A stretch of DNA of 38,428 bases from Streptomyces sp. DvalAA-14 (GTDB lineage: Bacteria > Actinomycetota > Actinomycetes > Streptomycetales > Streptomycetaceae), in contig NZ_FMCH01000390.1 in the NCBI RefSeq assembly GCF_900091855.1, positions 1 to 38,428 of the forward strand, in the 5' to 3' direction. A program made the position numbers and the translations under genes. Shown here in pieces: positions 2,140 to 22,023 of the stretch. Numbering within the stretch: position 1 is the first letter of the stretch; each line of letters starts with the position of its first letter. The notes under the pieces were generated by a model that had not been told where the DNA came from, made no database searches, and saw only the letters and a list, made by a program, of their open reading frames with translations.

Positions 2140-2183
2140 AAAAAGGCCCGGCCGCTGGCGACGGGGGATGCACCAGCGACCGG
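2140..2183 (-). terminator. Intrinsic terminator acting on the minus strand
   Basis: The arms 2148-2158 and 2173-2183 pair over 11 bases with one G-U (CCGGTCGCTGG with CCAGCGGCCGG on the minus strand). A run of five T follows on the minus strand at 2140-2144. The nearest minus gene upstream ends at 2547, about 360 bases away, so this terminator may end a separate short transcript. Confidence 0.6.
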
Positions 2184-2188
2184 ACTGT

Positions 2189-2230
2189 TTAAACGGTAAC
2201 AAGACTTCGTCCGATCGCAAATTCACTCAT
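2189..2230 (-). other. 13-codon mini-ORF directly upstream of the minus-strand terminator
   Basis: On the minus strand an ATG at 2230 opens a 13-residue frame, MSEFAIGRSLVTV, ending with TAA at 2189. It lies six bases before the terminator stem in an unusually A+T-rich patch with codons such as TTT and AGT that are rare in the host. No clear ribosome site precedes it. It may mark a small regulatory RNA or leader peptide rather than a protein gene. Evidence is context only. Confidence 0.3.
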
Positions 2231-2268
2231 CCGTGGGCCTACTGATTCCCCTGGGGTTTCTGGGGAGT

Positions 2269-2284
2269 TGTGATCGGGATCACT
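2269..2284. promoter_or_regulatory. CRP/FNR-like palindromic site
   Basis: The core 2270-2283 reads GTGATC-GG-GATCAC, a perfect palindrome. The 16 bases 2269-2284 fit TGTGA-N6-TCAC(A), the CRP-type pattern, except for the last base. It lies just upstream of the candidate short minus-strand transcript. Binding by the host Crp homologue is inference. Confidence 0.4.
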
Positions 2285-2297
2285 GAGCGACCGCTCA

Positions 2298-2325
2298 GGT
2301 GGCACCCCTGTCCGGGGGTGCCACC
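2298..2325. terminator. Strong hairpin, possible terminator
   Basis: Arms GGTGGCACCCC (2298-2308) and GGGGTGCCACC (2315-2325) pair perfectly around a six-base loop. There is no T run on either side, so it is a stem-loop of the kind that can end transcription in high-G+C actinomycetes. It is about 220 bases downstream of the minus gene ending at 2547. Confidence 0.45.
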
Positions 2326-2546
2326 AGGGCGGGTTGGGCGCGACGGCTGGGGCCGGGGGCGTGTCGCAGGTCGGCCGGGGCGGGGCCGGGCCGCGGGGCC
2401 CGGCCGCTGGGCCGGGCTGAATCCACGGGCCGGGGTCCCGGGCCGGAGTCCCGGGCCGGGGCATCGAGCCGGAGCGGTGCCGATGCCGCGGGGACGCGGT
2501 GGTCCGGGGATGTATCGGTGCGCTGCTGCGGGGCCGGATGGGCGCC

Positions 2547-3518
2547 TCAGCTTAGGGTGATCTGCCGGTTCGTGAAGCCGCTGCGTGCCTTGCGCTCCTC
2601 CGCGGTCAGCGGCCCGGTGCGGGACAGCGTCTCGGCCAGCCGCTCACCGAAGGCGGTGGCCGGCTTTTCCACCTCGTCCGCGCTCATGCCGACGGGCAGG
2701 TCCCACACCGGCACCATCAGCCCGTGCGCGCGGAACGAACCGACCAGCCGCGTACCGTCGCCCAGCGAGGACGCGCCCGCCGTGTGCAGCCGGGCCAGCG
2801 CGTCCAGCAGCGCCTCCTCCGGCTGCGGCATGACCCACCGCAGGTGGTTCTTCTCGGGCGTCTCGCACCAGTACGCCGCGTCCACGCCCGTCAGCCGGAC
2901 GGTCGGGATCGCCGCCTGGTTCGCCTGCTCCAGCGACGCGGCCACCTCGCCGGTCGCCGCGTCGGCGTCCTCCAGCCAGAACTCGAACCCTGTGTGCACC
3001 TCGGGGACGAAGGGCGCGGTCAGGTCCAGCAGGTCCTGCAGCCGCGGGCCGTCCGCCGCGGGGCGCCGGCTCTCCACCGGGCTGCCGGGCACCGCGACCA
3101 GCGCGCGCTGCAACGTGTCCGCCAGGTCGCGGCTGACATCGCCGGAAGCCGCCTCGTTCTGCAGGCCCAGCAGGACGGCGCCGGTGTCGCGGCGCAGCCC
3201 CGGCCAAGCCATCGGGAGCACGGTGCCGAGCGTCACCGACGACACCCCGTCGGGCAGGCCGTCCTTCAGCGTGAGCGGCACCGTCGCGGCCGGGACGAGC
3301 TCGCGCAGGGCGACCCAGTCGCACTCACCGGGCAGGCCCTCGAAGGGGCGGCGGACCAGCTCGGTGACGGCGTGCGCCGCCTCGCGGCCGTGGCACGCCT
3401 TGTACCGGCGGCCGGAGCCGCACGGGCAGGGCTCGCGCGCGCCGACAACCGGAACGGCTGCGTCCGATGCGGCCCTGGGGCCCTTGCTCTTGGTGGCGGT
3501 CACGCGCTTCTTGGCCAT
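2547..3518 (-). CDS. DUF5926 family protein with N-terminal SEC-C motif
   Basis: The product has 323 residues. After a basic start (MAKKRVTATKSKGPR) comes a SEC-C zinc motif, CPCGSGRRYKACHG, near residues 31-44. This is the motif that ends SecA and also occurs in unrelated proteins. The rest matches the actinobacterial DUF5926 family, often labelled preprotein translocase SecA although it has no ATPase domain. The C-terminus, ERKARSGFTNRQITLS, is typical of the family. It is probably a soluble cytoplasmic zinc protein; function is unknown. A shorter neighbouring gene, the HATPase regulator, lies 96 bases upstream on the same strand, so co-transcription is possible. The start at 3518 is supported by the conserved MAKK opening. 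Confidence 0.85.
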   Translation of the reverse strand: MAKKRVTATKSKGPRAASDAAVPVVGAREPCPCGSGRRYKACHGREAAHAVTELVRRPFEGLPGECDWVALRELVPAATVPLTLKDGLPDGVSSVTLGTVLPMAWPGLRRDTGAVLLGLQNEAASGDVSRDLADTLQRALVAVPGSPVESRRPAADGPRLQDLLDLTAPFVPEVHTGFEFWLEDADAATGEVAASLEQANQAAIPTVRLTGVDAAYWCETPEKNHLRWVMPQPEEALLDALARLHTAGASSLGDGTRLVGSFRAHGLMVPVWDLPVGMSADEVEKPATAFGERLAETLSRTGPLTAEERKARSGFTNRQITLS

Positions 3519-6321: not shown

Positions 6322-7642
6322 CGCCGGCCGGCCGGGCGACTCGGGCTACCCGGGCCAGGGTGTGACCCCGCCCGCGGACCCGTTCGCGGTGCCCGCCACC
6401 CCGTCCTACGCCCTGCCGCCCACCCAGACCGGCGGCACCTTCGGCGGCGGCACCGGCTCGGGCGCGGATTCCGGCGGCACGGGCTGGGGCGCGCAGTACC
6501 CCGGCACGATTCCCCCGGAGGGCGGGCGCAGAAGGCGCGGCGCCGGCCTGGTGATCGTCGCGGCCGCGGTGGCCGCACTGGTCGCGGGCGGCGTCGGCGG
6601 CGCTGTCGGCTACAACGCCGCGAAGAACAACGACAACTCCGGCTCCACCACCGTCTCCGCCCCCAAGGACGCCGCGGCCCTCAACCGCGCGCCCACCTCG
6701 GTGGCGGGCATCGCCAGCAAGGCGCTGCCCAGCGTCGTCACCATCAAGGCCAGCGGCAGCCAGGAGAGCGGCACCGGCACCGGCTTCGTGTTCGACACCC
6801 AGGGCCACATCCTCACCAACAACCACGTGGTCGCCCCGGCCGCCAACGGCGGCAAGCTCACCGTCACCTTCTCCAACGGCAAGACCTTCGACGCCGACGT
6901 CATCGGCCGCGCCCAGGGGTACGACGTCGCGGTCATCAAGCTGAAGAACCCCGGCAGCGTCAAGCTCACCCCGCTGCCGCTCGGCAACTCCGACAACGCC
7001 GCGGTCGGCGACGCCACCATCGCCATCGGCGCCCCCTTCGGCCTGTCCGGCACCGTCACCACCGGCATCGTCAGTGCGGTCCACCGCCCGGTGGCCTCCA
7101 GCGACGGCGAGGGCTCCGCGGCCTCCTACATGAGCGCCATCCAGACGGACGCGTCGATCAACCCGGGCAACTCCGGCGGCCCCCTGCTCAACGCCAACGG
7201 CGCCGTGATCGGCATCGACTCCGCGATCCAGCCCGGCGGCACCAGCGAGCCCGGCACCCAGGGCGGCAGCGTCGGCCTCGGCTTCGCCATCCCGATCAAC
7301 CAGGCCAGGCGGGTGGCCGACCAGCTCATCAAGACCGGTCAGCCGGTCTATCCCGTCATCGGCGTCAGCCTCGACACCAGCTTCGAGGGCGACGGCGCCA
7401 AGATCTCCACCGACACCAGCAGCGCCATCACCGCGGGCGGCCCCGGCGCCCAGGCCGGCCTCAAGCCGGGTGACGTCATCACCAAGTTCGACGACACCCT
7501 GATCGACAGCGGCCAGACCCTGATCGGCGAGATCTGGCAGCACCAGCCCGGCGACAAGGTCACCCTCACCTACACCCGCGACGGCTCCACCCACACCGCC
7601 ACCGTCACCCTCGGCAGCCGCACCGGCGACTCCGACAACTAA
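6299..7642 (+). CDS. HtrA/DegP-like trypsin-type serine protease with PDZ domain, membrane anchored
   Basis: This frame (447 residues from GTG 6299) carries the functional part of a surface quality-control protease. A proline/glycine-rich stretch is followed by RRRR and a membrane helix (residues about 82-104, GLVIVAAAVAALVAGGVGGA). The trypsin-like domain has His176 in LTNNHVV, Asp209 in YDVAVIKL and Ser292 in NPGNSGGPL. The C-terminal PDZ domain lies about residues 350-440 (GAQAGLKPGDVITKFDDTLI). The protease domain should lie outside the membrane. GTG 6299 has GGAGG only two bases upstream, too close for a normal start, which supports the view that translation really begins at 5737 and that a one-base insertion splits the gene. 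The tRNA-Ser gene follows 63 bases downstream. Confidence 0.9.
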   Translation: MSPGQPGDAGRPGDSGYPGQGVTPPADPFAVPATPSYALPPTQTGGTFGGGTGSGADSGGTGWGAQYPGTIPPEGGRRRRGAGLVIVAAAVAALVAGGVGGAVGYNAAKNNDNSGSTTVSAPKDAAALNRAPTSVAGIASKALPSVVTIKASGSQESGTGTGFVFDTQGHILTNNHVVAPAANGGKLTVTFSNGKTFDADVIGRAQGYDVAVIKLKNPGSVKLTPLPLGNSDNAAVGDATIAIGAPFGLSGTVTTGIVSAVHRPVASSDGEGSAASYMSAIQTDASINPGNSGGPLLNANGAVIGIDSAIQPGGTSEPGTQGGSVGLGFAIPINQARRVADQLIKTGQPVYPVIGVSLDTSFEGDGAKISTDTSSAITAGGPGAQAGLKPGDVITKFDDTLIDSGQTLIGEIWQHQPGDKVTLTYTRDGSTHTATVTLGSRTGDSDN

Positions 7643-7705: not shown

Positions 7706-7792
7706 GGAGGCTTGCCCGAGCGGCCTAAGGGAACGGTCTTGAAAACCGTCGTGGCAGCGATGTCACCGTGGGTTCAAATCCCACAGCCTCCG
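7706..7792 (+). tRNA. tRNA-Ser (anticodon UGA)
   Basis: The 87-base cloverleaf has a GGAGGCT/AGCCTCC acceptor stem, the anticodon stem ACGGT/ACCGT with loop CTTGAAA (anticodon TGA), a long variable arm as expected for class II tRNA-Ser, and the T arm TGGG-TTCAAAT-CCCA. CCA is not encoded. The 3' part from 7734 lies in the left att repeat, so the gene stays complete despite the island inserted behind it. Confidence 0.95.
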
Positions 7793-7928
7793 CCGAGGTC
7801 GGCGTAGTCGCACGTCAGAGGGGGCGCCCCGAAGTTCGGGGCACCCCCTCTGTGCTGCGGCTGCCTCGCCTCCTGCCGCACGTATCCCGCTGTCGACCAG
7901 CCTGGGTGGACCAGGCGTGGACCGGATT
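7734..7928 (+). repeat. Left attachment repeat (attL) of the tRNA-Ser island
   Basis: This segment aligns without gaps to 24621-24815. The first 61 bases (7734-7794), from the anticodon stem to the tRNA 3' end, are identical. The next 120 bases carry four mismatches. A last stretch (7915-7928) is weaker but ends in the shared GACCGGATT. A direct repeat starting inside a tRNA 3' half and flanking foreign genes is the classic result of tyrosine-recombinase integration. The unusual point is its length, since it includes the tRNA terminator. Confidence 0.85.
7818..7850 (+). terminator. Terminator hairpin behind tRNA-Ser (left copy, imperfect)
   Basis: The arms GAGGGGGCGCCCCG and CGGGGCACCCCCTC pair with one C-A mismatch. 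The matching hairpin in the right repeat (24705-24737) is perfect. It would end tRNA-Ser transcription. Confidence 0.7.
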
Positions 7929-7946
7929 TTCCTCCGGCGCTTGCCG

Positions 7947-8249
7947 TCAAAGACGCCTATGTCGCCCTTCGGCGGCTTCGGTTGTCGCCGATATGGATGC
8001 GGGTGGGTCCCCGTCCGTTCGGGTGTGACTCGTGACGCCCTCATGCGTACTGCGCCTCACAAGCAGGGCACCGATGCTATGGCAGCGGCTGATGAGGACA
8101 AGAACTACCAGTGCCCACGCCATGGTGTGGTCGTGCAGCCGGCCTGAGGTGATGGCCACGGCGCTGGTCGTGGTAATGGCTCCGCCGCCGATCAGCGATC
8201 GTCTCAGCCATTGTGGGACCAGCAGCTTGAACTCTTGGCTCTCGCTCAT
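7947..8249 (-). CDS. Possible small membrane protein
   Basis: From ATG 8249 (MSESQEFKLLVPQWLRR) a 100-residue frame shows two hydrophobic stretches, SLIGGGAITTTSAVAITSG and MAWALVVLVLISRC, then a polar tail. I recognise no family. No strong ribosome site is seen before 8249, and an in-frame start lies further upstream at 8288. It lies between the left att repeat and the integrase remnant, where small cargo genes are common. The frame could also be chance. Confidence 0.3.
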   Translation of the reverse strand: MSESQEFKLLVPQWLRRSLIGGGAITTTSAVAITSGRLHDHTMAWALVVLVLISRCHSIGALLVRRSTHEGVTSHTRTDGDPPASISATTEAAEGRHRRL

Positions 8250-8338
8250 CTGTTGCGCCTGACTGGAGGGCCGCCGGGGACAGCGCACGATCCGTTACCC
8301 GGAAGCCCCGGGCCCGCACATAAAAAGCTTAGCGCATT

Positions 8339-8361
8339 ACCTTCGAATCGAAGGTATTTTT
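8339..8361 (+). terminator. Perfect 8-bp palindrome followed by T run
   Basis: ACCTTCGA-A-TCGAAGGT (8339-8355) is a perfect inverted repeat with a one-base centre, followed by ATTTTTG. A one-base loop is too tight, so the real loop would take 3-5 bases. It could be a weak plus-strand terminator or a repressor operator in front of the minus-strand frame that starts at 8249. Confidence 0.4.
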
Positions 8362-8518
8362 GCCGTATCCCCTTTGAAGCATTGCGTACGTAGTGCCTTT
8401 GGGGCTGTGTGACCACCTCTGCTCACGGAGTCCCGGTCGGCGTCCGGCGACCCGGACCGAGGGCTGCTGATCAGCCTGCCCCTTCTGCGAGTACCCGCGC
8501 GATGCGTTCGTTGTCCTG

Positions 8519-8914
8519 CTACTGGCGGCCGTTGATGACCTTTGCGTAGAAGCGGTACAGGACGGCGACGCTATGGCCGGCCCGGCGGGCGGCCTCGGTC
8601 GCCTCGACTCCGGAGCTGAGCCAGAGGGAGACGCTGGCGTGACGGAGGGAGTACGGCACGTCGGCGATAGCCGTTGCCGCGTTCTCGGGTGAGAGGGCCT
8701 TCTGCCTGGCCGCCTTCCAGATGTCGGTGTACTCGGTAGAGCGGACGCGGCCTCCGCCGGCCGAGCGGAAGAGGCGACCGTCCGGTGCCATGCCGTACGT
8801 CTTCTTGTGCTGGCGGAGCCAGCTCACGAGTACGGGCGGTATCGGTACCGAACGAGTGGCTTTCCGAGCCCGACGCTTGACTTTAGGAGGAGCGACACTA
8901 TGAGGCCCAACTCT
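8519..8914 (-). pseudogene. Truncated tyrosine-type integrase (C-terminal catalytic half)
   Basis: The minus frame is open from 8914 to TAG at 8519 and translates the C-terminal half of a phage-type integrase. A basic stretch (KRRARKATRSVPIPPVLV) leads into the catalytic box with the RHxxxS/LRHAS arginine in SLRHASVSLW, the histidine in RAGHSVAVLYRFY and the tyrosine nucleophile close behind. The N-terminal DNA-binding domain and the first catalytic arginine region are missing: an in-frame stop lies at 8915-8917 and the promoter of the GntR gene occupies that place. The only in-frame start that could be used is GTG 8827. Position next to attL and orientation toward it suit the former integrase of this island. 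It is probably inactive. Confidence 0.75.
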
Positions 8915-8924
8915 CTAACTCGTC

Positions 8925-8939
8925 AAGACCTCTTGAGGA
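8925..8939 (+). promoter_or_regulatory. 15-bp palindromic operator-like element, copy 1
   Basis: AAGACCTCTTGAGGA holds two overlapping palindromes, AAGACCTCTT (with flanking C/G extending to CAAGA-CC-TCTTG) and CCTCTTGAGG. The identical 15-mer occurs on the other strand at 16960-16974. It is 42 bases upstream of the GntR start at 8982, the usual place for an autoregulated GntR operator. Confidence 0.55.
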
Positions 8940-8981
8940 CTTGTATGCTGAAGCCGCCCGATGATCAGGACGGTGAGCCGC

Positions 8982-9770
8982 ATGGCCAAGGCATACGAAC
9001 GGATCGCTGACGATCTACGTCAGCGCATCCGCGCAGGTGAGCTGGGCCCAGGCGACCGCCTGCCAGCCGAGACAACACTCGTGGACGAGTACGCCAAGAG
9101 CCTCCCGACAATCCGTCAGGCGTTGGGTCTCTTGCAGGCGGAGGGGCTGATCGAGAAGCAGCACGGCCGCGGCAACTTCGTCCGCCGGCCGCGCACGCCC
9201 GTCTTGCGCACCAACCTGCGGCACGCCTGGGAAAAGGGCCGTGCACGCGATCCCGAGGCGGAGCGGGCGCAGACGGGGGCGACCGAGCACGACACCGGCC
9301 TCGAGCTGAGCGACCTCATCTTTCATGCGGCCTACCACGAGGTGCCTGCGGAGCCGGAGATGGCGAAGATCTTCCGTGTCCCCGTCGGTACGGCCCTGGT
9401 GGAGCGGAACTACCGCACCCGGTATCGCGTGGAGCCGGCACCCTTCACCCTCGTACGGTCCTACCTCGTCCGCGACATGGTCGCCGCGAATCCGGACCTG
9501 TTGGACGAGACCAAGGAGCCCTACCCAGGCGGTACGCAAAGCCAACTCTTCACCATCGGGATCGAGTTGGACCGCATAGAGGAATACGTCACCGCCCGCC
9601 CGCCGACAGCGGAGGAGGCGGAGGAGCTGGCGATGCCGGCCGGCTCCGCGGTCATCGTGCTCCGCAAGACGTCGTACGACACCGACGACCGTCCGGTCGA
9701 GCACTCCGAAGTGATCCTGCCGGGCGACCGCACGGAGATGCTGTTCACCACCCACCTGGAAAGGTGGTGA
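8982..9770 (+). CDS. GntR-family repressor with UTRA ligand domain (island copy 1)
   Basis: The 262-residue protein has an N-terminal winged helix (YERIADDLRQRIRAGELGPG, then PTIRQALGLLQAEGLIEK and the wing HGRGNFVRR) and a UTRA effector domain from about residue 120 to the end. Proteins of this HutC/KorSA type repress island or plasmid genes and release DNA on binding a small ligand. I start at ATG 8982 (MAKAYERIADDL), because MIRTVSR before it is not part of the domain. The conserved palindrome at 8925-8939 lies just upstream, so autoregulation is likely. The glycosyltransferase frame overlaps its stop, which suggests one operon. Confidence 0.88.
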   Translation: MAKAYERIADDLRQRIRAGELGPGDRLPAETTLVDEYAKSLPTIRQALGLLQAEGLIEKQHGRGNFVRRPRTPVLRTNLRHAWEKGRARDPEAERAQTGATEHDTGLELSDLIFHAAYHEVPAEPEMAKIFRVPVGTALVERNYRTRYRVEPAPFTLVRSYLVRDMVAANPDLLDETKEPYPGGTQSQLFTIGIELDRIEEYVTARPPTAEEAEELAMPAGSAVIVLRKTSYDTDDRPVEHSEVILPGDRTEMLFTTHLERW

Positions 9771-10531
9771 CCGGCGTGCCGGCTCGCCGCATCGACGTCA
9801 TCACGGCCGTCCACCCACCCGCCGCCCCCTACCTCGCGGACGCGTACAAGTCCCTGTGTGCGCAGGAGCTTCCGGCCGGGTGGGAATGGCACTGGATCAT
9901 CCAGGAAGACGGCTACAGCGACGCGGTGACGCCCTACGTCCCTGACGACCCCCGGATCGCCTTCCACCAGGGCCGACCGGGCGGCCCTGGCGTCGCCCGC
10001 ACGATGGCCCTTGCCCACGCCTCCGGCCCGTACGTCAAAGTCCTCGACGCTGATGACCAGTTGACCCCGGGCGCCCTCGCCCGCGACTTGGCCGTCCTGG
10101 AAGCCGACCCCGCCCTCGGCTGGACGACCTCCCGCGTCCTGGACCTCCTGCCGGACGGTTCGACGGCTGGCTTCGACCAGGACCCGGCAGACGGCCCGAC
10201 CGAGCGCGGAGCGGTGGTCGCCTTCTGGAAGGCCAACAACTTCCGCGCCCAGGTCCACCCGGCCACCCTCTTCGTCCGCCGCGACCTGCTCCTCGCCTTG
10301 GGCGGCTGGATGGCCCTCCCCGCCTCCGAGGACACCGGCCTCCTCCTGGCCCTCAACACCGTCGCGCAGGGCTACTTCACCCGCGAATACGGACTCCTGT
10401 ACCGGAAGTGGCCCGGCCAGGCCACCGCCCAGACACACCACACCCACGAAGCCGAGCGCACAGCCCGCATGGCCGTCATCGAAGCCCGGGTGAACTCTCT
10501 GGCACTTCTCAGAGGCACTGACCCTCTGTAG
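9767..10531 (+). CDS. Family 2 glycosyltransferase
   Basis: The protein of about 254 residues has a GT-A fold of glycosyltransferase family 2. It opens RRIDVITAVHPPAAPYLADA, with QEDGYSD in the nucleotide-sugar region and VLDADDQ as the DxD-like metal site near residue 90. A segment with HPATLFVRRDLL and an acceptor-side ASEDTGLL follow. No membrane helix is seen, so it is a soluble cytoplasmic enzyme. Donor and acceptor cannot be told. GTG 9767 overlaps the GntR stop by four bases (GTGA), a sign of translational coupling; GTG 9776 has a better-spaced GGAAAGG and is equally possible. GntR plus glycosyltransferase pairs are recurrent in Streptomyces accessory DNA. Confidence 0.8.
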   Translation: MTGVPARRIDVITAVHPPAAPYLADAYKSLCAQELPAGWEWHWIIQEDGYSDAVTPYVPDDPRIAFHQGRPGGPGVARTMALAHASGPYVKVLDADDQLTPGALARDLAVLEADPALGWTTSRVLDLLPDGSTAGFDQDPADGPTERGAVVAFWKANNFRAQVHPATLFVRRDLLLALGGWMALPASEDTGLLLALNTVAQGYFTREYGLLYRKWPGQATAQTHHTHEAERTARMAVIEARVNSLALLRGTDPL

Positions 10532-10721
10532 GGAATCTCTCCAACGGCCCTGCAAATGATGAGGTTGCTGAGGTCGCTCACCTCGCGGTGGTCACCGCAC
10601 AGTGATCCTGCGGGATCTAGGGAAAGATCTTGAGCGCTAGTCAGTCTGCGGCTTGGGCTGCGACACGACAGGCGCATCGGTACGATCATGTGTCTAACTG
10701 GGGGGCATATGGGGGCGGTAG

Positions 10722-11492
10722 ATGACACTAGCGCAGAAGAATAAGGTCATCGAGAATTCTCTGACTGTGCTAGCGATCCTCTTCGGCAGTGTGGCCTTCG
10801 CCTTGTCGGTGGTGGCAGGACAGACCCCGAACATCGACTGGCCCTTGCTTATCGCGGGCATTGTCAGTACGGCAATCACCCTGGCCGTCGCTGCAATCGA
10901 GAAGAATCGCGCGAACAAGCTTCGAGATGCGACGGAGCGGCTGGCCAGAGACGCTGAGGTTCGTTACGAGCTGCTGGTTTCAGGACTCACCCCAAGTGTG
11001 AAGCATGTAGCCCGAATAGCCGGTATGACATTGGCATCGCTGCCTCTCGACATGCAGCGCGGAAGGTTGGATCAGTCCATTGCCGTCTCTGCGGCCGGCG
11101 TTTCTCCCGGATCACGGGGTATGTTCTACCGTTATGACCAGGTGACCAAAATTTTCACTTTGGCGGCGGAATGGCCAGGCGGGTCGAAGACAGAGGTTGT
11201 TCCTGGAGCCCCTGGGCACGGCATGATGAAGCGAGTGGCAGAGGATGGCAGGCTTTTCACCCGGTCGGGGCCTCCGTCGCCGTTCAAGGCGAGTGCGTCT
11301 GGTAGCGGACCCACGCCAACAAACGATGCTGTGGCGGTTGTTCCGGTGATAGTTGGATCAACACCTCTGGGCGTCCTGGCTGTCGACTCCGACCGCGCAT
11401 CGTGGTCCACTGGGACTCCGGAGTACAGCGACCGTGACATCCGCCAGCTCCTACTACTCGCGGATCTTCTTGGAGCTGGGTTGATACCATGA
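10722..11492 (+). CDS. Two-helix membrane protein with cytoplasmic GAF domain
   Basis: The 256-residue protein has two N-terminal membrane helices (about residues 14-32 and 39-60), a short charged helix (EKNRANKLRDATERLARDAE) and a C-terminal GAF-like domain (about 95-250). Its conserved-looking strands are MFYRYDQVTKIFTLAAEW, AVVPVIVGSTPLGVLAVDS and SDRDIRQLLLLADLLGAGL. GAF domains bind cyclic nucleotides or other small ligands. There is no kinase, cyclase or phosphatase domain, so the output must come from the membrane part or from a partner, perhaps the next gene. ATG 10722 has GGGGGCGG upstream. The base composition is slightly less G+C-rich than the host genes. Confidence 0.7.
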   Translation: MTLAQKNKVIENSLTVLAILFGSVAFALSVVAGQTPNIDWPLLIAGIVSTAITLAVAAIEKNRANKLRDATERLARDAEVRYELLVSGLTPSVKHVARIAGMTLASLPLDMQRGRLDQSIAVSAAGVSPGSRGMFYRYDQVTKIFTLAAEWPGGSKTEVVPGAPGHGMMKRVAEDGRLFTRSGPPSPFKASASGSGPTPTNDAVAVVPVIVGSTPLGVLAVDSDRASWSTGTPEYSDRDIRQLLLLADLLGAGLIP

Positions 11493-11513
11493 TCAAATTC
11501 AGGGAGGGCTGAG

Positions 11514-11867
11514 ATGCTGGAAGATCCTTGGTCCGATCGCGCGATTGCGGCGCATCTGTATGATCCAAGCGCGTTCTTTACCGATCAGGACAGTTCACTC
11601 GCACACGTGGACCGAGTCATTGATGCGAGAATGGACGAGATCTATCGATCGCTTCCCGGTGATCGTTTGAGTCTCTTCCTTTCAGCGACCGGCACGGTTG
11701 CCGCCACTGTCTGGTTGTCCTTCGCCGGGACTCGCTGGGCTATCGCCCCTGGTGTGGTGACACTGGCTATCGTCGCTGTCTGGATTATTGCGGTTTCGCC
11801 TAACCCTCGACGGCGTCCTTTGCCTCCGGAAACCGATGACGAGCCAGAGCCGTTCCCTAGAGGCTAA
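11514..11867 (+). CDS. Small two-helix membrane protein, partner of GAF protein
   Basis: The 117-residue product has a polar N-terminal half of about 50 residues (MLEDPWSDRAIAAHLYDPSA, then HVDRVIDARMDEIYRSL), two membrane helices (about 52-70, LSLFLSATGTVAATVWLSF, and 75-95, WAIAPGVVTLAIVAVWIIAV) and a proline/acid-rich tail. I recognise no family. GGGAGGG precedes ATG 11514, and the gene starts 21 bases after the GAF gene, so both should be on one transcript. Its end overlaps the end of the convergent GntR gene by 11 bases. Confidence 0.65.
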   Translation: MLEDPWSDRAIAAHLYDPSAFFTDQDSSLAHVDRVIDARMDEIYRSLPGDRLSLFLSATGTVAATVWLSFAGTRWAIAPGVVTLAIVAVWIIAVSPNPRRRPLPPETDDEPEPFPRG

Positions 11868-12612
11868 CCGGCACCTCGTAGACGATCTCGCAGAGCGAGG
11901 CGGGCACAACGATGTCCGCCGTCTCCACCGGCCGGCCGTCCTCGCTGTAATACGTCCGCTCGATGTGCGTGGCCAAGGTGCCCTTCTGGACGCCGAGCAG
12001 CGCGGCTTCCTCGGCGGTGACCGCCCGCGGTGACGGCTGCTCCACCGCGCGGCTGACCCTCACCCCGATCTCCGCCATCCGCCGGACGACGCCGATGCCC
12101 GCGTGCGGGCCGCCCTCGGGTAGGACGATGAGGGTGCCGGCCGTGAGGGCAGACGGCTCCCAGCTGGTCGAGAGCTGGACCGGCTTGCCATCGGCCAAGA
12201 ACTCGTAAGCCGTGCGTACACACAACTCACCCTCCCCGATGCCGAGTCGGGCGGCGATGTCCGCAGGCGCCGGCACCTTCGCATCGGTGCGGCTCTCCCA
12301 AGTGCCTCGCTTGCCGAGCGCCGCCATGTCCGCCTGAAAGGGCGAGCCGCCGACCTGTTCGCGGTATATCGACCGCACCATCCGCAACCGTGCGCGCGGC
12401 TCGGCGACGTACGTACCTGAGCCCGCGCGGCCTTCGAGGGTGCCGACGGAGATCAGCAGCTCCTGAGCGCGGCGGATGACGTTGTCTCCGACGCCGTACT
12501 GCTGGGCGAGTTCGGCGCGGGAGGGGAGGCGGTCCCCGGGTGCCCAGTCCTGGCGCGCGATGCGCTCGCGGAGCACGTCGGCGATGCGGAGGTACGGCGG
12601 CTGCTCAGGCAT
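11857..12612 (-). CDS. GntR-family repressor with UTRA domain (island copy 2)
   Basis: The 251-residue protein opens MPEQPPYLRIADVLRERIAR and has a winged helix (residues about 6-75; SGTYVAEPRARLR is the wing end) and a UTRA domain (about 95-248). It most resembles KorSA-type regulators of pSAM2-like integrative elements, which repress transfer or replication genes. No Shine-Dalgarno sequence precedes ATG 12612. Instead a TAGATT box seven bases upstream suggests a leaderless message whose promoter is covered by palindromes (12613-12651), a layout fit for autorepression. It is divergent from the small gene at 12692 and may control that leftward/rightward pair. Confidence 0.88.
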   Translation of the reverse strand: MPEQPPYLRIADVLRERIARQDWAPGDRLPSRAELAQQYGVGDNVIRRAQELLISVGTLEGRAGSGTYVAEPRARLRMVRSIYREQVGGSPFQADMAALGKRGTWESRTDAKVPAPADIAARLGIGEGELCVRTAYEFLADGKPVQLSTSWEPSALTAGTLIVLPEGGPHAGIGVVRRMAEIGVRVSRAVEQPSPRAVTAEEAALLGVQKGTLATHIERTYYSEDGRPVETADIVVPASLCEIVYEVPVSL

Positions 12613-12651
12613 GTGGACAATCTAGTCCACTAGCTCTAAGTTAGTTAACTA
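12613..12651 (-). promoter_or_regulatory. Promoter with nested operator palindromes for GntR copy 2
   Basis: On the minus strand TTAACT (near 12645-12650) and TAGATT (12619-12624) are spaced 18 bases, a fair -35/-10 pair that would start transcription at or next to the ATG. Three palindromes overlap it: GTGGAC-AATCTA-GTCCAC (12613-12630), CTAGT-CC-ACTAG (12622-12633) and TAGTTAACTA (12642-12651). Confidence 0.55.
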
Positions 12652-12691
12652 GCATCACCGAGGGTGCTCGCTTGGCAACGGAGGACGCCTT

Positions 12692-12973
12692 GTGCCACCG
12701 CGCGACCGACGTATCGCCGCCATCTCGGCGCGCCTCACCGCCGTCGGACTCGAACCGGAGCTGAAGGAGTACGCCCACTACACGTCCATTGAGGCGCGGG
12801 TACCCGACTCTTCCCCGGTCGAGTCCTGGTCGGAGGTCCTGGCGGCGCTCGAAACCGCCGACGGGTTCGGCCTCGCCGACAGTGCGGCCCGCGGCCGTTC
12901 GCTGTGGGCCACCATCCGCAAGAGCGTCCCCGCGGCCACATCGGCCGCCGAGACGCCACACGAGCAGCTATAG
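12692..12973 (+). CDS. Small hypothetical protein of integrative-element type
   Basis: The 93-residue protein starts at GTG 12692 with GGAGG seven bases upstream. It opens MPPRDRRIAAISARLTAVGL and contains SWSEVLAALETADGFGLADS and GRSLWATIRK. Proteins of this kind are common in Streptomyces accessory clusters next to GntR genes, but no function is known to me. It is the first gene of a rightward run (12692-15235) in which the later genes overlap by one to four bases. Its promoter region is shared with the divergent GntR gene. Confidence 0.65.
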   Translation: MPPRDRRIAAISARLTAVGLEPELKEYAHYTSIEARVPDSSPVESWSEVLAALETADGFGLADSAARGRSLWATIRKSVPAATSAAETPHEQL

Positions 12974-12985
12974 GAGCTGACTACC

Positions 12986-13255
12986 GTGTTCGACCACTTT
13001 CGCAGAGCCGCCCGCCGGATCGCGCGGCAACTCGTCCCCACGACAGGACGCCACCGCCAACGGCCCCCGCAACCGGACCCGTTGGATACGCCCATGAACT
13101 TCGGGACCACCAGGTCTTTACGGCCATTGCGCCCGCCGACGCCGCCCTTTCGGCCGGACGATCACCCGCTGGTCCGCCCGTACGTCCTCAACGCCGAGGA
13201 ATGGGCCCGGCGTCGCGACGAAGTCCGGCCGCGAGTGACGGCCAATGCCTCATGA
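12986..13255 (+). CDS. Small basic hypothetical protein
   Basis: The 89-residue frame starts at GTG 12986 (MFDHFRRAARRIARQLVP), with AGGAGCTG about 10 bases upstream overlapping the end of the preceding gene. The first 30 residues are strongly basic, the middle is proline-rich, and the end reads DDHPLVRPYVLNAEEWARRR, the most protein-like part. The stop overlaps the ATG of the next GntR gene by four bases (ATGA), which supports translation. Function unknown. Confidence 0.6.
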   Translation: MFDHFRRAARRIARQLVPTTGRHRQRPPQPDPLDTPMNFGTTRSLRPLRPPTPPFRPDDHPLVRPYVLNAEEWARRRDEVRPRVTANAS

Positions 13256-13947
13256 CCGCCCGCCACCAGCAGGTCGCCGACGACCTCCGCCGCCTCATCG
13301 CGTCCGGAACGCTCCCGGTCGGCGAACGCCTCGCCCCCGAGACCCAACTCGCCGCCCATTACCGCGTCAGCACCCCGACCCTCCGCGACGCCCTCGAACT
13401 GCTCCGCGCGGAAGGGCTGATCGAGAAGTTCCAGGGCCGCGGCAACTACGTCCGCCGGCCACCCGAACGGCTCACCTACCCGAGGGCCGACGGCACCGAA
13501 GACCTTCACGTGACCGTCAGCTCAACCGACCTCGCGGCAACTGAAGACTTGGCCGCCCGCCTCCGAACACGGCCGAACGACGCGGTCACCGAATACGTAT
13601 GCCTGAGCCACGGCGCCGACTCCCCGCAGAGCCTCGCGCACCTCTACGTTCCCCACGCCGTAGCCCGGATCCAAGCTCCCCCGATCGGCGCCTCGCCCTG
13701 GGGCGACGACATCCTCACCGCGGCCGGCGTGCTCGCGGCGGCCAGCACCGACCAGGTCACCGCCCGGTTCCCCACCGCGGCGGAAGCACAGTCGTTGCGC
13801 ATCGGCGCCCGTACGCCCGTCCTCGCCGTGGAACGCACCATCGCCGCGGACGACGGCCAGATAGTCGCCTACGCACTCCTCGTACTCCCAGGCGACCGCG
13901 CGGAGGTCGCCGTCGTCACCCGGATCGACAAGAAAGCGGAAGCGTGA
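13252..13947 (+). CDS. GntR-family repressor with UTRA domain (island copy 3)
   Basis: The 231-residue protein opens MTARHQQVADDLRRLIASGT and has the winged helix TPTLRDALELLRAEGLIEKF with wing GRGNYVRRP, then a short UTRA-like domain to DRAEVAVVTRI. The DNA-binding half is close to that of copy 1 (both contain LRAEGLIEK or LQAEGLIEK and GRGN-VRRP), so the two probably share ancestry. I start at ATG 13252 because it overlaps the previous stop and begins the domain; the frame is open much further upstream, but those codons are a shadow. It is the regulator inside the overlapping run of five genes. Confidence 0.87.
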   Translation: MTARHQQVADDLRRLIASGTLPVGERLAPETQLAAHYRVSTPTLRDALELLRAEGLIEKFQGRGNYVRRPPERLTYPRADGTEDLHVTVSSTDLAATEDLAARLRTRPNDAVTEYVCLSHGADSPQSLAHLYVPHAVARIQAPPIGASPWGDDILTAAGVLAAASTDQVTARFPTAAEAQSLRIGARTPVLAVERTIAADDGQIVAYALLVLPGDRAEVAVVTRIDKKAEA

Positions 13948-14720
13948 TGACCGAAGTCCCCTCGACGCACGACCTGAAGCCGCCCGAATCCGGTTCCGCT
14001 TCCGTGCTGCGTCTCCTCCCGTGGGCCTCCCCGGAGGGCCGACCCGCCTACTTGAGCACCGGCGGGGGCTTCCTCGCCGGTCTCGCCGACGAGATCGAGG
14101 AACTCCAACTCGGTTCGGCGAAAGAGGTGTTCGACGTCGTTCCCATCGTCCTGGGCAACCCCGACGCGAGCCCCGAGGAGCTTCGCTTCGCCGCCCAGCG
14201 GCTTCACGAATCGCTCGGGGATACGTTGCGGGTGGCTCTGAGCAGGGGGTTGCGCGGCTCGTCATCGCCAGTCGGCCAGGTGAGGCCGGTGGTGGTGGAG
14301 AGGTGGGCGCACAGTCCCCGATCCGTCGGAGAGGCTCGACACGAGCTGCGGCGCGCGCTTGAGGCGTGGGGGCTCGACACGATGGCGGACACGGCGGAAC
14401 TCGTCCTCTCCGAACTGCTCACCAACGCCGTCCGCCACGCGCACTCGCCGCTGGATGGGGAGATCGAGACGCGTTACGAGCGCGGAGACGGCGGCGTTCG
14501 TATCGAGGTGCACGACGCCAACCAGACCTGGCCCTTGCTCCAAAAGCTCTCGGAGGATGGGGAGTCGGGGCGTGGGCTTGCTCTGGTCGACGCGCTCACC
14601 GCGTCGCGCTGGGGAGTGAGCGAACATGAAGGGGTCGGAAAACTCGTATGGGCGATCGTCGCGGATGCCGGCGCTGGTGAGCCGTCCGGCGCTACCGGGC
14701 CAGGGGCGAGCACCCTATGA
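13947..14720 (+). CDS. ATP-binding protein, HATPase_c with family-specific N-terminal region
   Basis: The 257-residue protein has an N-terminal region of about 110 residues (RPAYLSTGGGFLAGLADEIE is typical of a Streptomyces family) and a C-terminal HATPase domain with N box LVLSELLTNAVRHAHS, G1 box IEVHDANQTWP and G2 box ESGRGLALVDALTASRWGV. Such stand-alone ATPases are seen as anti-sigma-like kinases. ATG 13947 overlaps the GntR stop (TGATGA), so translation should be coupled. GntR, this ATPase and a DUF6907 protein form a set that recurs in streptomycetes; the set's job is unknown. Confidence 0.85.
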   Translation: MTEVPSTHDLKPPESGSASVLRLLPWASPEGRPAYLSTGGGFLAGLADEIEELQLGSAKEVFDVVPIVLGNPDASPEELRFAAQRLHESLGDTLRVALSRGLRGSSSPVGQVRPVVVERWAHSPRSVGEARHELRRALEAWGLDTMADTAELVLSELLTNAVRHAHSPLDGEIETRYERGDGGVRIEVHDANQTWPLLQKLSEDGESGRGLALVDALTASRWGVSEHEGVGKLVWAIVADAGAGEPSGATGPGASTL

Positions 14721-15235
14721 CCAGCACCGCTACGACACGTCCCGGCGCGAACTCGCCCCTTGGCGCTCCCGCTGCCGAGCCCGTACAGCCTGGCCGTTCC
14801 TGGACCATCGCCACCACCGCCGGGTACGCCGCGACCGGCTACCTCCCCGCATGGGCGGTGGCCGACCCCAGCGAGACCGGGATATCGCTCGACCTGCTCC
14901 CAATCCGCTTGGCGGACGTCAACCACTGCACGGTCTTCGAGGGCCAGACCATGCGGGTCCGATCGCCGGGGTGCGGCTGTGTGCCCGGTCGGCTGGGGGA
15001 GACGGAGGTTTTGCGGGGGAGTATCGACTGCAATCCCTACGCCGAGGACCCCGAGCCGTCCGATCCGGTCGTCAACATCGCCACCATTGAGGACTTCTGG
15101 ATCAACGGCCTCGACTCGGACGGCCTCGCCGAGATCGCCGCCAAGCTACGCGCCAAGGCGGACCGCCTCGACCGCGAGATACGTCCTCGGCTCCTCGCTG
15201 CCCGCGCCGACTGGACCGCCCACCACGCCACCTGA
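14717..15235 (+). CDS. DUF6907-like protein
   Basis: The 172-residue protein begins with a polar tail, then GYAATGYLPAWAVADPSETG, LADVNHCTVFEGQTMRV, IDCNPYAEDPEPSDPVVNIA and the helical end LAEIAAKLRAKADRLDREIR. This fits the DUF6907 family found beside HATPase and GntR genes in Streptomyces. It is soluble with no known activity. ATG 14717 overlaps the ATPase stop by four bases (ATGA). It ends the rightward run; the convergent CPT-like gene ends 60 bases further on. Confidence 0.72.
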   Translation: MTSTATTRPGANSPLGAPAAEPVQPGRSWTIATTAGYAATGYLPAWAVADPSETGISLDLLPIRLADVNHCTVFEGQTMRVRSPGCGCVPGRLGETEVLRGSIDCNPYAEDPEPSDPVVNIATIEDFWINGLDSDGLAEIAAKLRAKADRLDREIRPRLLAARADWTAHHAT

Positions 15236-15295
15236 ACCCGAGCGCCACCACCACGCCCCGGCCGCCCGCGTCCCTTGCGGCGGCCGGGCCGTCGA

Positions 15296-15826
15296 TCACC
15301 TGAGATGTGCGGCAATGGCGCGTGCGCACTCCATCGACTCGGCATGCGTGGTGTCCACCTCCAGGTCATAGGCCACGCCCTGGTGGACCACATCCGCCTG
15401 GGATGCGGCCATCCCCGTGACCCGATCGCCTCGCGCGACCTCACGGCCCGCAGCAACCGCACTGTCACACCGGACGCCGACCCACAGCACGCGCAGGTCA
15501 CGCAAAGCCTTCTGCCATCGCTGCTGCGAGTTCGCTCCACCCAGGAAGACCTCATCGACGATGACCCGAGCGCCCGCACGGGCCATCGTTGCAACTCCCT
15601 CGATCCATGCCGCTTCCAGCGCCCGGAACTCCGGCCCGACGATCACCTCTCCGTCCGGAGCGAACTCGATCCCCGCATCCGATGCCCGCATGGACGCGGG
15701 CATCGCGTCAACCAGCGTGTCGGTTCCCAGAGCCAGCCACGGATCCGACAGGACCGCCTGCAGACACCGGGCGATCCCGGACTTCCCCGAGCTGGAACCA
15801 CCGTTGAGAACGATCACCTCAGTCAT
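15296..15826 (-). CDS. Chloramphenicol phosphotransferase-like P-loop kinase
   Basis: The 176-residue protein opens [20 protein letters not shown], a Walker A loop at residues 9-16. It continues with [24 protein letters not shown] and [20 protein letters not shown], the pattern of the CPT family of small-molecule kinases. The prototype phosphorylates chloramphenicol, but most members have unknown substrates. I start at ATG 15826 because the frame upstream has no family similarity. No ribosome site stands out. Resistance to an antibiotic is possible but not shown by the sequence. It lies between the DUF6907 gene and the FkbM gene. Confidence 0.78.
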
Positions 15827-15929
15827 CACCGCGCCACAGTAGGGGCACCGCAGCAACCCTCGAAACGGATTTCTGCGGACGGTTGCCCGCCTCCTACAAC
15901 CCGATGAAGCTTCCCGGTCAGAGCACTTG

Positions 15930-16850
15930 CTAGGGCAGTGTCTCGGCGTCGATCCGCGAGAAGATGAGGTCACTCTCCCCGGTGACCGGCCCACGCCAGC
16001 GGACGGGCACGGCCGACGCGCCGCTCAGCGCGGCCGGGTAGCTAGCAGGGGCGTACTCATTGGCGAGCCGGTACACGTGGAAGCCGGCGCCCCGCATGGT
16101 CTCCAACAGCTCCTCGACGGAGTCGCCGAGCTGCGCCATCCGCTCCGGCGTCACCTCCACGGTGATCTCCGCGTCGGGACGCAGCCTGTCCAGCAGCGGC
16201 GCCATCCCCCGTACGGCGCTGCCCTCCGCGCCCTCGACGTCCACCTTGATGACTCGCGCCTTCGCGATCTCGTCCTCTTCCAGGACGTCCGGGAGCGGGA
16301 ACGCCTCGATGTCGAACGTGGACTCCGCCGGGCCGTCGTACGGCACGATGCTGTTCGCACCCATGTTGTTCGAGCTGGCGAGTATGAAGGTGAGCGTCTG
16401 CTGCTTGTCGGAGACAGCGGTGTGGACGGCGCGGATGTTGGTGCAGCCGTTGAGGCGGGCGTTCTGCGCCAACCGGTCCTGAAAGGCCCGGGACGCCTCG
16501 ATGGCCACGACCTTGCCCTCGGGGCCGACGAGCTGCGAGGCGAGCACGCTGAAGTAGCCGATGTTCGCGCCGACGTCCACGAAGGTGTCGCCGGGTCGGA
16601 GCCGGCGCTTGAGCCACTGCGTCATCCGCGGCTCCCACACGCCGAACAGGTACACGTACCGCTGGATGAGGTCTTGCGTGTCGACGGCGAACCGGGGCCC
16701 GACGGCCGACCCGACGACCCGGCGCCGGGGCTCATCCCGCAGCCGCGGGTTCAGGAAGTCGGCGAGGGGCGCCTTGGCCAACGTCCCCGGAGCGTTGCGC
16801 ACGTACCACCGCCCGAGGGTGACCAGTGCCTCTGAAGTGGGATTGCTCAT
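15930..16850 (-). CDS. FkbM-family SAM-dependent methyltransferase
   Basis: The 306-residue protein carries the SAM-binding motif [18 protein letters not shown] (about residues 92-109), motif II VVAIEAS and the FkbM signature [17 protein letters not shown]. FkbM enzymes O-methylate sugars or natural products; the acceptor here is unknown. ATG 16850 has GGAGAGG about eight bases upstream. The codons before it have no similarity. Its upstream region holds the second copy of the 15-bp palindrome (16960-16974), shared with the divergent gene at 17000, so the first GntR may regulate both. Confidence 0.87.
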
Positions 16851-16959
16851 CCGATCGCCTCTCCGCCGGCTGCCACGCGCACGGTAGCACCGCGCTCTTC
16901 CCGCTCCCACGAGCCAGAACGGCGAAGGGAGCCCCAAGCCCGCGCCGCTCCTCCTAAAA

Positions 16960-16974
16960 TCCTCAAGAGGTCTT
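16960..16974 (-). promoter_or_regulatory. 15-bp palindromic operator-like element, copy 2
   Basis: Read on the minus strand it is AAGACCTCTTGAGGA, identical to 8925-8939. It lies 110 bases upstream of the FkbM start and 26 bases upstream of the divergent TTG at 17000, in the only intergenic space these genes share. Confidence 0.55.
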
Positions 16975-16999
16975 TACGGCTCACGGGGCGGGGGATGGC

Positions 17000-17560
17000 T
17001 TGGACAGTTCCGAGCAGCTCTTAACGATCGTCGCCGTGCTGCTGGGCGCGCTGACCACCTACGTCACCAACTACTGGACCGAGCGCCAGCGCATCCGCCG
17101 CGAGCTGCTGACCCGCTGGGACGACAAGAAACTGGACGCTTACGAGGGCTACATCGACCGCGTTCGCGCCGGCGTCTTCATCGCGGTCGAACTGTACGAG
17201 CACACTGAGGACATCCGCCGCAGCGACGAACCCGAGTCCCAGATTCGTGCCCAGCTCACCGAGGCCGCCCACTTCCGCGGCCGTGCCTTCGAGCGCGTCA
17301 TGCTCCTGGGCGGCGACGATGTCGTGGAGGCCGGCCACAACCTCAACGCGGCAGCCCTCGAAGTCGACTGGCAGGCCACAGGCAAGACTCCCGGCTCCCT
17401 GGAGCACTGGCGCGACCGCAACCGCGCCGTCTTCCGCGCCATCAACGCCTTCCACCAGGCCGCCCGCGACGACCTCGGCGTCAGCGGATCAGTGGTCGGG
17501 GAGACACATCCGGAGAGGGGCTTGTTGCTCCCGCCAGCCCGGCGCGGAGAGGACAGGTGA
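17000..17560 (+). CDS. Single-helix membrane protein, function unknown
   Basis: From TTG 17000 the 186-residue protein has one N-terminal membrane helix (about residues 6-26, LLTIVAVLLGALTTYVTNYW) and then a mostly helical cytoplasmic domain (TERQRIRRELLTRWDDKKLD, RVMLLGGDDVVEAGHNL, WRDRNRAVFRAINAFHQAAR). I see no catalytic motif. GGGGGAT lies a few bases upstream. A TTG start is unusual, but no ATG or GTG in frame fits the helix better. It probably shares regulation with the divergent FkbM gene through the palindrome between them. Confidence 0.68.
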   Translation: MDSSEQLLTIVAVLLGALTTYVTNYWTERQRIRRELLTRWDDKKLDAYEGYIDRVRAGVFIAVELYEHTEDIRRSDEPESQIRAQLTEAAHFRGRAFERVMLLGGDDVVEAGHNLNAAALEVDWQATGKTPGSLEHWRDRNRAVFRAINAFHQAARDDLGVSGSVVGETHPERGLLLPPARRGEDR

Positions 17561-17570
17561 TCGTCGGTTC

Positions 17571-17678
17571 GTGGCAGACACCAGGAATTGGTTCAGCGAA
17601 CTGGGAGGGTGCCCGACGTGCGATCACCCGAAGCATTTGACTGACTGCGCCAACTGCGGGGAGTTCCCAGCAAGCTAG
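17571..17678 (+). CDS. Possible 35-residue zinc-binding mini-protein
   Basis: A GTG at 17571 opens a short frame ending in GCPTCDHPKHLTDCANCG, with two CxxC pairs spaced like a zinc ribbon and Trp/Phe before them. It starts 10 bases after the previous stop. GGACAGG lies about 14 bases upstream, further than usual. The Cys spacing is unlikely to be pure chance, but the coding case rests on it alone. Confidence 0.4.
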   Translation: MADTRNWFSELGGCPTCDHPKHLTDCANCGEFPAS

Positions 17679-17740
17679 GCCAGATGGCTCCGGCTGCCGT
17701 GATTAGCCGTACTTGTGCAAAATACGCCTGTATCGATCTC

Positions 17741-18697
17741 TCAGTCACCATCCGCTTGTGTCACGAGGTACTGAGTCGGCATGGCTGTCAAGTGTTTCGA
17801 CGCCAAAAGTCCTTCCAGCCCTCGAAAAATCAATGGGTACCCAAGTTTTGTCAGCTTGTCAAATTCATCTTTAGCGGGCGTCTTCAGGGATACTCCGCCC
17901 CAAAAATGGATCTCATACGCACTCTCGAAACGGTGAGCCATTCTCCATTCATTCCGACTTAGAAAGAAGCGTACTGCTGTCTCTCCGCTAGCTTTGACCT
18001 CGATCAATCGCTTTGGTGTCAGATTTAGGTCCTCGATATCGTATCCCAGCGTCTCATCATCTCTTGCGACCCAGCGTACCTTGGCAGCGTCGCTTGCTAT
18101 ACTCCGACAATATCGATAACTGTAGAGTTCACCCCTATTTCCCATGTCCTTTCTAAAGTCGATCTCCGGACCTGCAGTCGGAGGAAGAAGAGACCATACG
18201 TCACTTATCTCGGCTACCAGATCGGCCGCAACCGTCAACTGGTCTGTCAATGCGACGGCTCCTGTGAAACGCCTCAGGATACCAGTCAGTTGGGGTGCTA
18301 CTGATAGTGCCAGTTCCTTAGGACAGCTCAGAGATCGAGATGGGTTGATGTTACTTACCTCAAGAAGGCTTCGAGCTTGGCCGGCGAACAGCCCAGAACG
18401 AATGAGCGCAAGGCCCAACAGCTTGCCACCCGATTGATGGTCCTGCGTGGCGATCTTGACCCCAGCTTTCGTGACTTTTAGCCGGGTATCTTGAGCTTCT
18501 ACAAGGCCCATGTGTATCAAGATGTCGAGGAGGATAGGGACGTCATCGATGGGGCCGCCACATTGCCGCCACAGGTCCCGACGAGCCGTCTGGGTATCGA
18601 TGCCCGGTGGAGGGTAACGTCGAATCGTCGTGAGCATCACGGGAAGACGGACCACTCGAACGGCAGTCAACCAATTACCAAGATCCCGCGATATCAC
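17741..18697 (-). CDS. DUF3883-type protein with PD-(D/E)xK-like nuclease residues
   Basis: The 318-residue protein has an N-terminal part with winged-helix character (HMGLVEAQDTRLKVTKAGVK, near residues 62-81) and a C-terminal DUF3883 domain: NRGELYSYRYC, then LGYDIEDLN, KRLIEVKAS and RFFLSRNEWRMA. Asp220, Glu233 and Lys235 have the spacing of a PD-(D/E)xK nuclease core, although DUF3883 domains are not all proven nucleases. It is the last gene of the methyltransferase operon; GTG 18697 overlaps the helicase stop by four bases. In that context it is the likely effector or DNA-cutting subunit. Base composition is far less G+C-rich than the host. Confidence 0.75.
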   Translation of the reverse strand: MISRDLGNWLTAVRVVRLPVMLTTIRRYPPPGIDTQTARRDLWRQCGGPIDDVPILLDILIHMGLVEAQDTRLKVTKAGVKIATQDHQSGGKLLGLALIRSGLFAGQARSLLEVSNINPSRSLSCPKELALSVAPQLTGILRRFTGAVALTDQLTVAADLVAEISDVWSLLPPTAGPEIDFRKDMGNRGELYSYRYCRSIASDAAKVRWVARDDETLGYDIEDLNLTPKRLIEVKASGETAVRFFLSRNEWRMAHRFESAYEIHFWGGVSLKTPAKDEFDKLTKLGYPLIFRGLEGLLASKHLTAMPTQYLVTQADGD

Positions 18698-20653: not shown

Positions 20654-20655
20654 CT

Positions 20656-21990: not shown

Positions 21991-22023
21991 TTTCCCCCCA
22001 GGCCGCGTCGTCTGACGCTATCT

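Follow-up and report, generated by a model that had tools for sequence, protein, structure and literature searches.

A hairpin with a constant C-rich loop next to the DUF5926 gene of Streptomyces sp. DvalAA-14: a probable small RNA gene with a Crp-type site upstream

Introduction

Among described RNAs, the one most like the element considered here is 6C (RF01066), a small actinobacterial RNA with two hairpins, each presenting six or more C residues, and its C-rich loops have been reported to bind several mRNAs (Mai et al. 2019, cited in the available part of PMC8388888). The accessible text of Moody et al. 2013 (PMC3765725) describes scr1434 and scr5583 as conserved Streptomyces small RNAs with C-rich loops, and svr5535 as a Streptomyces small RNA consisting of a single stem-loop of 41 nt. 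Rfam holds a number of further Streptomyces small RNAs, including scr1601, scr2736, scr3920, scr4115, scr5239, and the sodF sRNA (excerpts of PMC8388888 and PMC8079986); according to an excerpt of the first of these, a function has been worked out for very few small RNAs of Streptomyces. In S. clavuligerus, 606 conserved intergenic regions were counted, 19 of them with Rfam annotation (PMC11678152, in part), and unannotated conserved elements are thus to be expected.

Here we describe such an element on the minus strand of a 38,428-nt stretch (the window) of the 7.9 Mb genome of Streptomyces sp. DvalAA-14. The RNA predicted from it resembles 6C in being small, actinobacterial, and furnished with a C-rich hairpin loop, but has one hairpin rather than two, and five loop C residues (AUCCCCC) rather than at least six. 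Scanned with Rfam 15 at gathering scores, the window matched only tRNA, and when 2090-2350 was scanned permissively, with E values up to 5 admitted, four matches appeared, all weak and unrelated. RF01066 appeared in neither scan, and none of the named Rfam Streptomyces small RNAs matched 2090-2350 even at E 5; the genome's own 6C gene lies elsewhere (G000:C481:85675-85751, 54.1 bits). The numbers of scr1434, scr5583, and svr5535 point, we would guess, to other loci; these three were compared by their partly available descriptions only, and the predicted transcript may well be listed already in a supplementary table of small RNAs.

In the literature search, whose results were mostly seen as listings, no paper that ties to the locus was found. 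Queries with the guessed S. coelicolor numbers scr3971-3973, scr3974, scr3975, SCO3973, and SCO3974, which we derived from what we take to be the HtrA number, SCO3977, returned no papers; the loop sequence returned only a zebrafish paper (for the complement) and a Streptomyces pan-proteome paper mentioning DUF5926.

A further C-rich element was seen in the same genome, at 1485-1570 of locus L107 (G000:C370, about 6605-6690). Its first hairpin shares the AUCCCCC loop and a bulged U with the present RNA, but the element has two hairpins, the first with a short stem, and stands at a separate locus. The second hairpin also has a C-rich loop (UCCCCCCGUG), and the element had a DNA match in 101/101 family genomes and no Rfam match at E 0.1. 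From its chromosomal position it might, at a guess, be the scr1434 of Moody 2013.

Results

The element lies in the A+T-richer patch of the window (2151-2300), flanked on one side by the minus-strand DUF5926/SEC-C gene (2547-3518; PF19348 at 423.1 bits, PF02810 at 32.9 bits) and on the other by plus-strand frames. GC content is 0.58 over 2151-2250 and 0.56 over 2201-2300, compared with 0.69-0.87 in the adjoining 100-bp intervals from 2051 to 2450, and the A+T-rich patch of the original prediction is therefore real. Read 5' to 3' along the minus strand, a Crp-type palindrome (2283-2270) is followed after about 50 bases by TTGCGA, TG-T-TACCGT, a 16-pair hairpin, and TTTTT. The predicted RNA is a single hairpin of about 47 nt at 2140-2186 (minus strand), its start placed from the -10 box and its end from the T run. 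The stem-loop (2146-2185) has arms at 2185-2170 and 2162-2146, with 16 pairs that include one U-G, a bulged U at 2161, and the loop AUCCCCC at 2169-2163; the T run at 2140-2144 would be the tail of an intrinsic terminator. A terminator with an 11-bp stem had been claimed here: the hairpin and T run are present, but the stem is longer than stated. A simple scan listed no minus-strand site, and in relatives the T run is T-rich but variable, often short, and weak in many. Folded by itself, a 122-nt stretch is unremarkable (z -1.46, 14/200 shuffles equally good), and the case for an RNA consequently comes from conservation and covariation rather than from the fold energy of that stretch.

Conservation within the family is nearly complete. 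BLASTN of 2136-2330 found a match in 35/35 genus genomes, and 2140-2270 matched 393 of 394 sampled Streptomycetaceae genomes, representing 17/17 genera; these family matches often span 40-85 nt around the hairpin and the -10 box. The sole genome missed by BLASTN, G353, carries a copy of a third type (see below) at 36.9 bits. Poor conservation of the stem and patch in close relatives had been named as the outcome that would count against a small RNA; the opposite was found. An alignment of 33 distinct loci (31 from the genus and two from other genera) retains TGCATCCCCCGTCG and GTGA-N6-TCAC in 33/33, and the bases between the Crp-type site and the -35 element, which serve as a control inside the locus, are poorly conserved. 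DNA similarity yielded 104 family loci, some overlapping, and 102 of them have the exact sequence ATCCCCCGTC; the remaining two are weak matches (E 0.001 and 0.004), so that selecting rows by the loop lost little.

Covariation was assessed in two alignments. The first, A2, comprises 47 distinct family hairpins from loci found by DNA similarity and selected by the loop pattern, leaving out L097-L100, where the alignment misplaced a gap. Of its 752 cells, 99.5% are paired, and two-sided compensatory changes occur in 8/16 pairs; when partners were slid by one to three columns, only 18-53% were paired. The second, A5, was aligned with MAFFT, using no structural information, and holds 30 of the 39 matches outside the family; the near-duplicates L171 and L193 were omitted, as were L198-L203 and L205, which have shorter loops or stems. 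Here, 96.7% of 480 cells are paired (26-50% in slid versions), a level that is partly due to selection because the outside loci were found with a model holding the stem and loop. The many pair types in A5 are not due to selection: two-sided changes affect 11/16 pairs, and RNAalifold recovers the identical 16 pairs. CCCCC-G-U-C is constant in A2 and A5, and the preceding A and U vary in a few outside loci, although where rows were picked by the loop pattern the constancy of the loop is in part a consequence of that choice. What emerges is an intergenic element that has structure and keeps its C-rich loop, and a constant, exposed loop of this kind on a changing stem has the look of a pairing seed or of a protein-binding loop.

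The covariance model R1, which includes the locus itself, matches 2142-2187 (minus strand) at 72.6 bits (E 3.7e-15). At E 0.002, it found matches in 115 of the 345 class genomes sampled; 33 of these belong to the family and 82 do not. Among the 82, a total of 69, from 21 families, reached E 1e-5 or better. The other 230/345 were without a match, and the RNA is thus patchy outside Streptomycetaceae. The 13 weakest outside matches may be chance; L208, the only one of them that was read, lacks the loop. In the phylum sample, which reaches beyond the class, there was a match at E 0.1 in 43 of 296 genomes, and nine of the 43 are Streptomycetaceae. Among the 21 weak phylum-level loci that were read (L126-L146), L126 presents the loop on a hairpin without TANNNT, and the loop of L140 falls within an open frame of at least 1010 amino acids; these were treated as chance. 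An exact scan of named genomes with an outside-type pattern gave 14 stretches, known from the pattern match alone, which are labelled Wenjunlia vitaminophila, Nanopelagicales, Micrococcales, Actinomycetales, other or uncultured actinobacteria or bacteria, and one Acidobacteria MAG. A mobile origin was rejected after BLASTN of 2141-2230 found no match among 50,697 phage and 72,556 plasmid records.

A promoter of its own is predicted for the RNA. An extended -10 element, TGTTACCGT, occupies 2193-2201 (minus strand; hexamer at 2198-2193), and TTGCGA at 2215-2220 (minus strand), conserved in Streptomycetaceae copy-1 loci, is a putative -35 element across a 16-nt spacer. Of 127 distinct loci, 122 have a TANNNT box that starts 28-37 nt ahead of the loop core: all 71 family loci that lie downstream of DUF5926, 15 of the 18 other family loci, and 36 of the 38 from outside the family; intervals shifted by 20-100 nt hold the box in 0-2 loci per group. 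The 127 derive from 133 hairpin rows after removal of L126 and of rows identical over the 60 upstream nt; L204, which fails the exact loop pattern, and the loopless L208 are absent from the rows. The box is lacking in L187, L191, and the three family exceptions, L097-L099, which are third-type copies, two of them with GATGCGGTAGAAAGG at about the equivalent place. From the fixed place of TANNNT, transcription would begin at the stem foot or right beside it, so that the RNA would be essentially the hairpin alone. With the T run, the box gives the element the sequence signals of a promoter and a terminator. The prediction of a minus-strand small RNA gene with the hairpin as its 3' end is thereby supported, at the level of sequence, by conservation and by the TANNNT spacing.

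The same does not hold for the 13-codon frame that had been placed within the transcript. MSEFAIGRSLVTV can be read at 2230-2189 (minus strand) as the tail of a 91-amino acid open frame, but the frame overlaps the -35 and -10 elements and its ATG is present in only 1 of 33 aligned loci. A translated peptide was accordingly rejected; MSEFAIGRSLVTV is the promoter read as codons.

TGTGATCGGGATCACT lies at 2269-2284, 38 nt from the ATG of that frame, much as the original prediction had it (a CRP-like palindrome about 40 bases upstream), and it is a conserved upstream site. The core GTGA-N6-TCAC (2270-2283) is centred at about -90.5 from the predicted start. Of the 71 family loci linked to DUF5926, 63 have an exact copy in the 200 nt upstream, and in 43 of these 63 it stands 116 nt ahead of the loop core. 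Among the 18 family loci that lack DUF5926, 9 have such a copy, at 94-96 nt; outside the family, 3 of 38 loci do. For these three groups, mononucleotide shuffles lead one to expect about 0.1, 0, and 0.05, respectively; the exact site is missing from the other 8, 9, and 35. With the predicted start, the sites would centre near -91 and -71. Motifs of GTG(N)6GNCAC for Crp in S. coelicolor and GTG(N)8CAC for GlxR are given in an excerpt of PMC10033298; the window site fits the latter and misses the G of the former. Taken at face value, this distribution suggests that control by Crp would be mainly a Streptomycetaceae trait of a wider-reaching RNA.

Beside the Crp-type site, the inverted repeat CTGAGCG-AC-CGCTCAG (2283-2298, I13) is a possible second operator; it is recognisable as TGAGCGGTCGGTCA in many, not all, genus loci, and to our eye resembles the operators of TetR-type regulators.

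In 92 of 133 rows, the hairpin has a same-strand DUF5926 gene upstream, whose end is 24-645 nt away; 75 of these rows belong to the family, and 17 are among the 38 from outside it. This synteny favours vertical descent. A separate hairpin at 2291-2332 (minus strand; inverted repeat I2, 18-nt arms that are 89% complementary), variable in the genus, is the probable terminator of the DUF5926 gene. Two family rows without DUF5926, L078 and L079, are the best matches that their genomes have; each may represent the main copy, with a diverged gene next to it.

Extra copies occur elsewhere in a number of genomes, for instance at 4.39 and 4.80 Mb in G042, and G116 has four matches, one of them weak; the DvalAA-14 genome has one strong copy and two more model matches at E 0.013 and 0.037. 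Several extra copies have a different -10 context (CCTTGTTAGCCT and similar). The extra copies L089-L091, read by eye, lie 3' of a same-strand frame ending in EEYLPRLSYDPPCD or similar, which is presumably WD40/nSTAND-like. A third copy type, L097-L099 and L260, has a different stem (e.g., GCCCGTCCGGTG..CACCGG); GATGCGGTAGAAAGG lies upstream in three of these four, and L097-L099, besides lacking TANNNT, have no exact GTGA-N6-TCAC within 200 nt.

Possible targets were sought with the pattern ACGGGGGAT-N0-12-RTG, which matched 11 times (10 sites) in the own genome and 21 times (16 sites) in G073, compared with 0 and 3 for the reversed pattern, an unfair control because the reversed form holds TAG. 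No downstream protein was common to the matches of the two genomes, taking the longest reading per locus only, and no conserved complement was seen by eye ahead of the DUF5926 start in 74 start regions. A 25-nt stretch, AGATGACGAGAGGTGACGGGGGATG, is identical in two genera (L214 and L236); it lies in a divergent region that contains a partial palindrome.

Elsewhere in the window, at 7706-24015, a tRNA gene precedes genes for GntR-type regulators, for a helicase-like protein (18694-20244), and for a protein with partial resemblance to the anti-phage DUF1156 family (22024-24015); these protein matches are all below NCBIfam cut-offs. The region is possibly an island integrated at the tRNA.

Discussion

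That the locus is a real structured RNA gene seems to us very probable. The small RNA, its 3' hairpin, and the upstream palindrome of the original prediction stand at the level of sequence, whereas the mini-ORF within the transcript and the alternative reading as a leader do not. A leader peptide or attenuator for a downstream gene was suggested by the position of the 13-codon frame ahead of the terminator, but that short frame is unconserved and coincides with the promoter, and the genes that follow, a plus-strand open reading frame at 1860-2066 (68 amino acids, no Pfam match) and the Prim-Pol gene at 855-1583, are on the opposite strand; we give this idea practically no weight. It is also very improbable that the hairpin simply terminates the DUF5926 gene, conserved in that role and yielding no separate RNA. 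It does lie 3' of that gene in most rows and has a T run in the window, but a terminator can work with any loop sequence, the DUF5926 gene is missing upstream of 18 distinct family loci, a promoter-like box stands at a fixed distance in nearly all loci, and the hairpin at 2291-2332 already follows the gene.

Two other explanations accept the small RNA and differ about its partners. The loop and bulged U could bind a protein, the RNA then being a sponge or cofactor and not an antisense regulator, which would suit a constant CCCCC-G-U-C core on a stem whose letters drift (a constancy partly by selection outside the family), the existence of extra copies, and a target search that gave no shared target. 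No binding protein is known, however, and mRNA-pairing RNAs like 6C also present a C-rich loop (PMC8388888, in part); on balance we consider protein binding unlikely, if worth keeping in mind. Alternatively, a regulator other than Crp could occupy the palindrome, or the site could repress, as the adjoining palindrome and the A that replaces the G of the S. coelicolor motif might suggest. Several relatives, though, read GTGATTCCGGTCAC, an exact fit to GTG(N)6GNCAC, and the two spacings differ by about 20 nt, as would be expected if the promoter were activated from upstream in the manner of E. coli CRP; we judge this explanation, too, to be rather unlikely.

The reading that we prefer, and hold to be reasonably probable as a full mechanism, is that of a Crp-controlled regulatory RNA with a C-rich loop, like 6C in its working but not a member of 6C. 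Its minimal unit would be a free-standing gene composed of the Crp site, the promoter, and the hairpin. RNA polymerase would start at the foot of the stem and stop at the T run, releasing a hairpin of about 47 nt. In Streptomycetaceae, Crp bound near -91 would probably stimulate the promoter from upstream; in several extra copies it would do so near -71, a position nearer by about two helical turns. Action in trans is probable for the RNA, and we would guess that the exposed AUCCCCC(GU) loop pairs with G-rich stretches of mRNAs. By analogy with what is reported for the C-rich loops of 6C, ribosome-binding regions would be the most likely pairing sites, and it is this analogy that makes mRNA pairing the preferred mode of action.

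More tentatively, and with confidence falling a little short of even, we propose that this is an unrecognised actinobacterial RNA family: a self-terminating hairpin whose constant (A)UCCCCC-GU loop module recurs both in the extra copies and in the RNA with two hairpins, which is controlled by Crp in Streptomycetaceae, and which is possibly a global regulator of translation through G-rich ribosome-binding sites. The predicted RNA is only about 47 nt long, with one constant loop, and its targets or binding partner are therefore directly testable by loop mutants. The element is kept in nearly all sampled Streptomycetaceae genomes, where it has the Crp-type site, and occurs in another 21 families of the class; an RNA of this kind would place post-transcriptional control in antibiotic producers under the influence of cAMP signalling.
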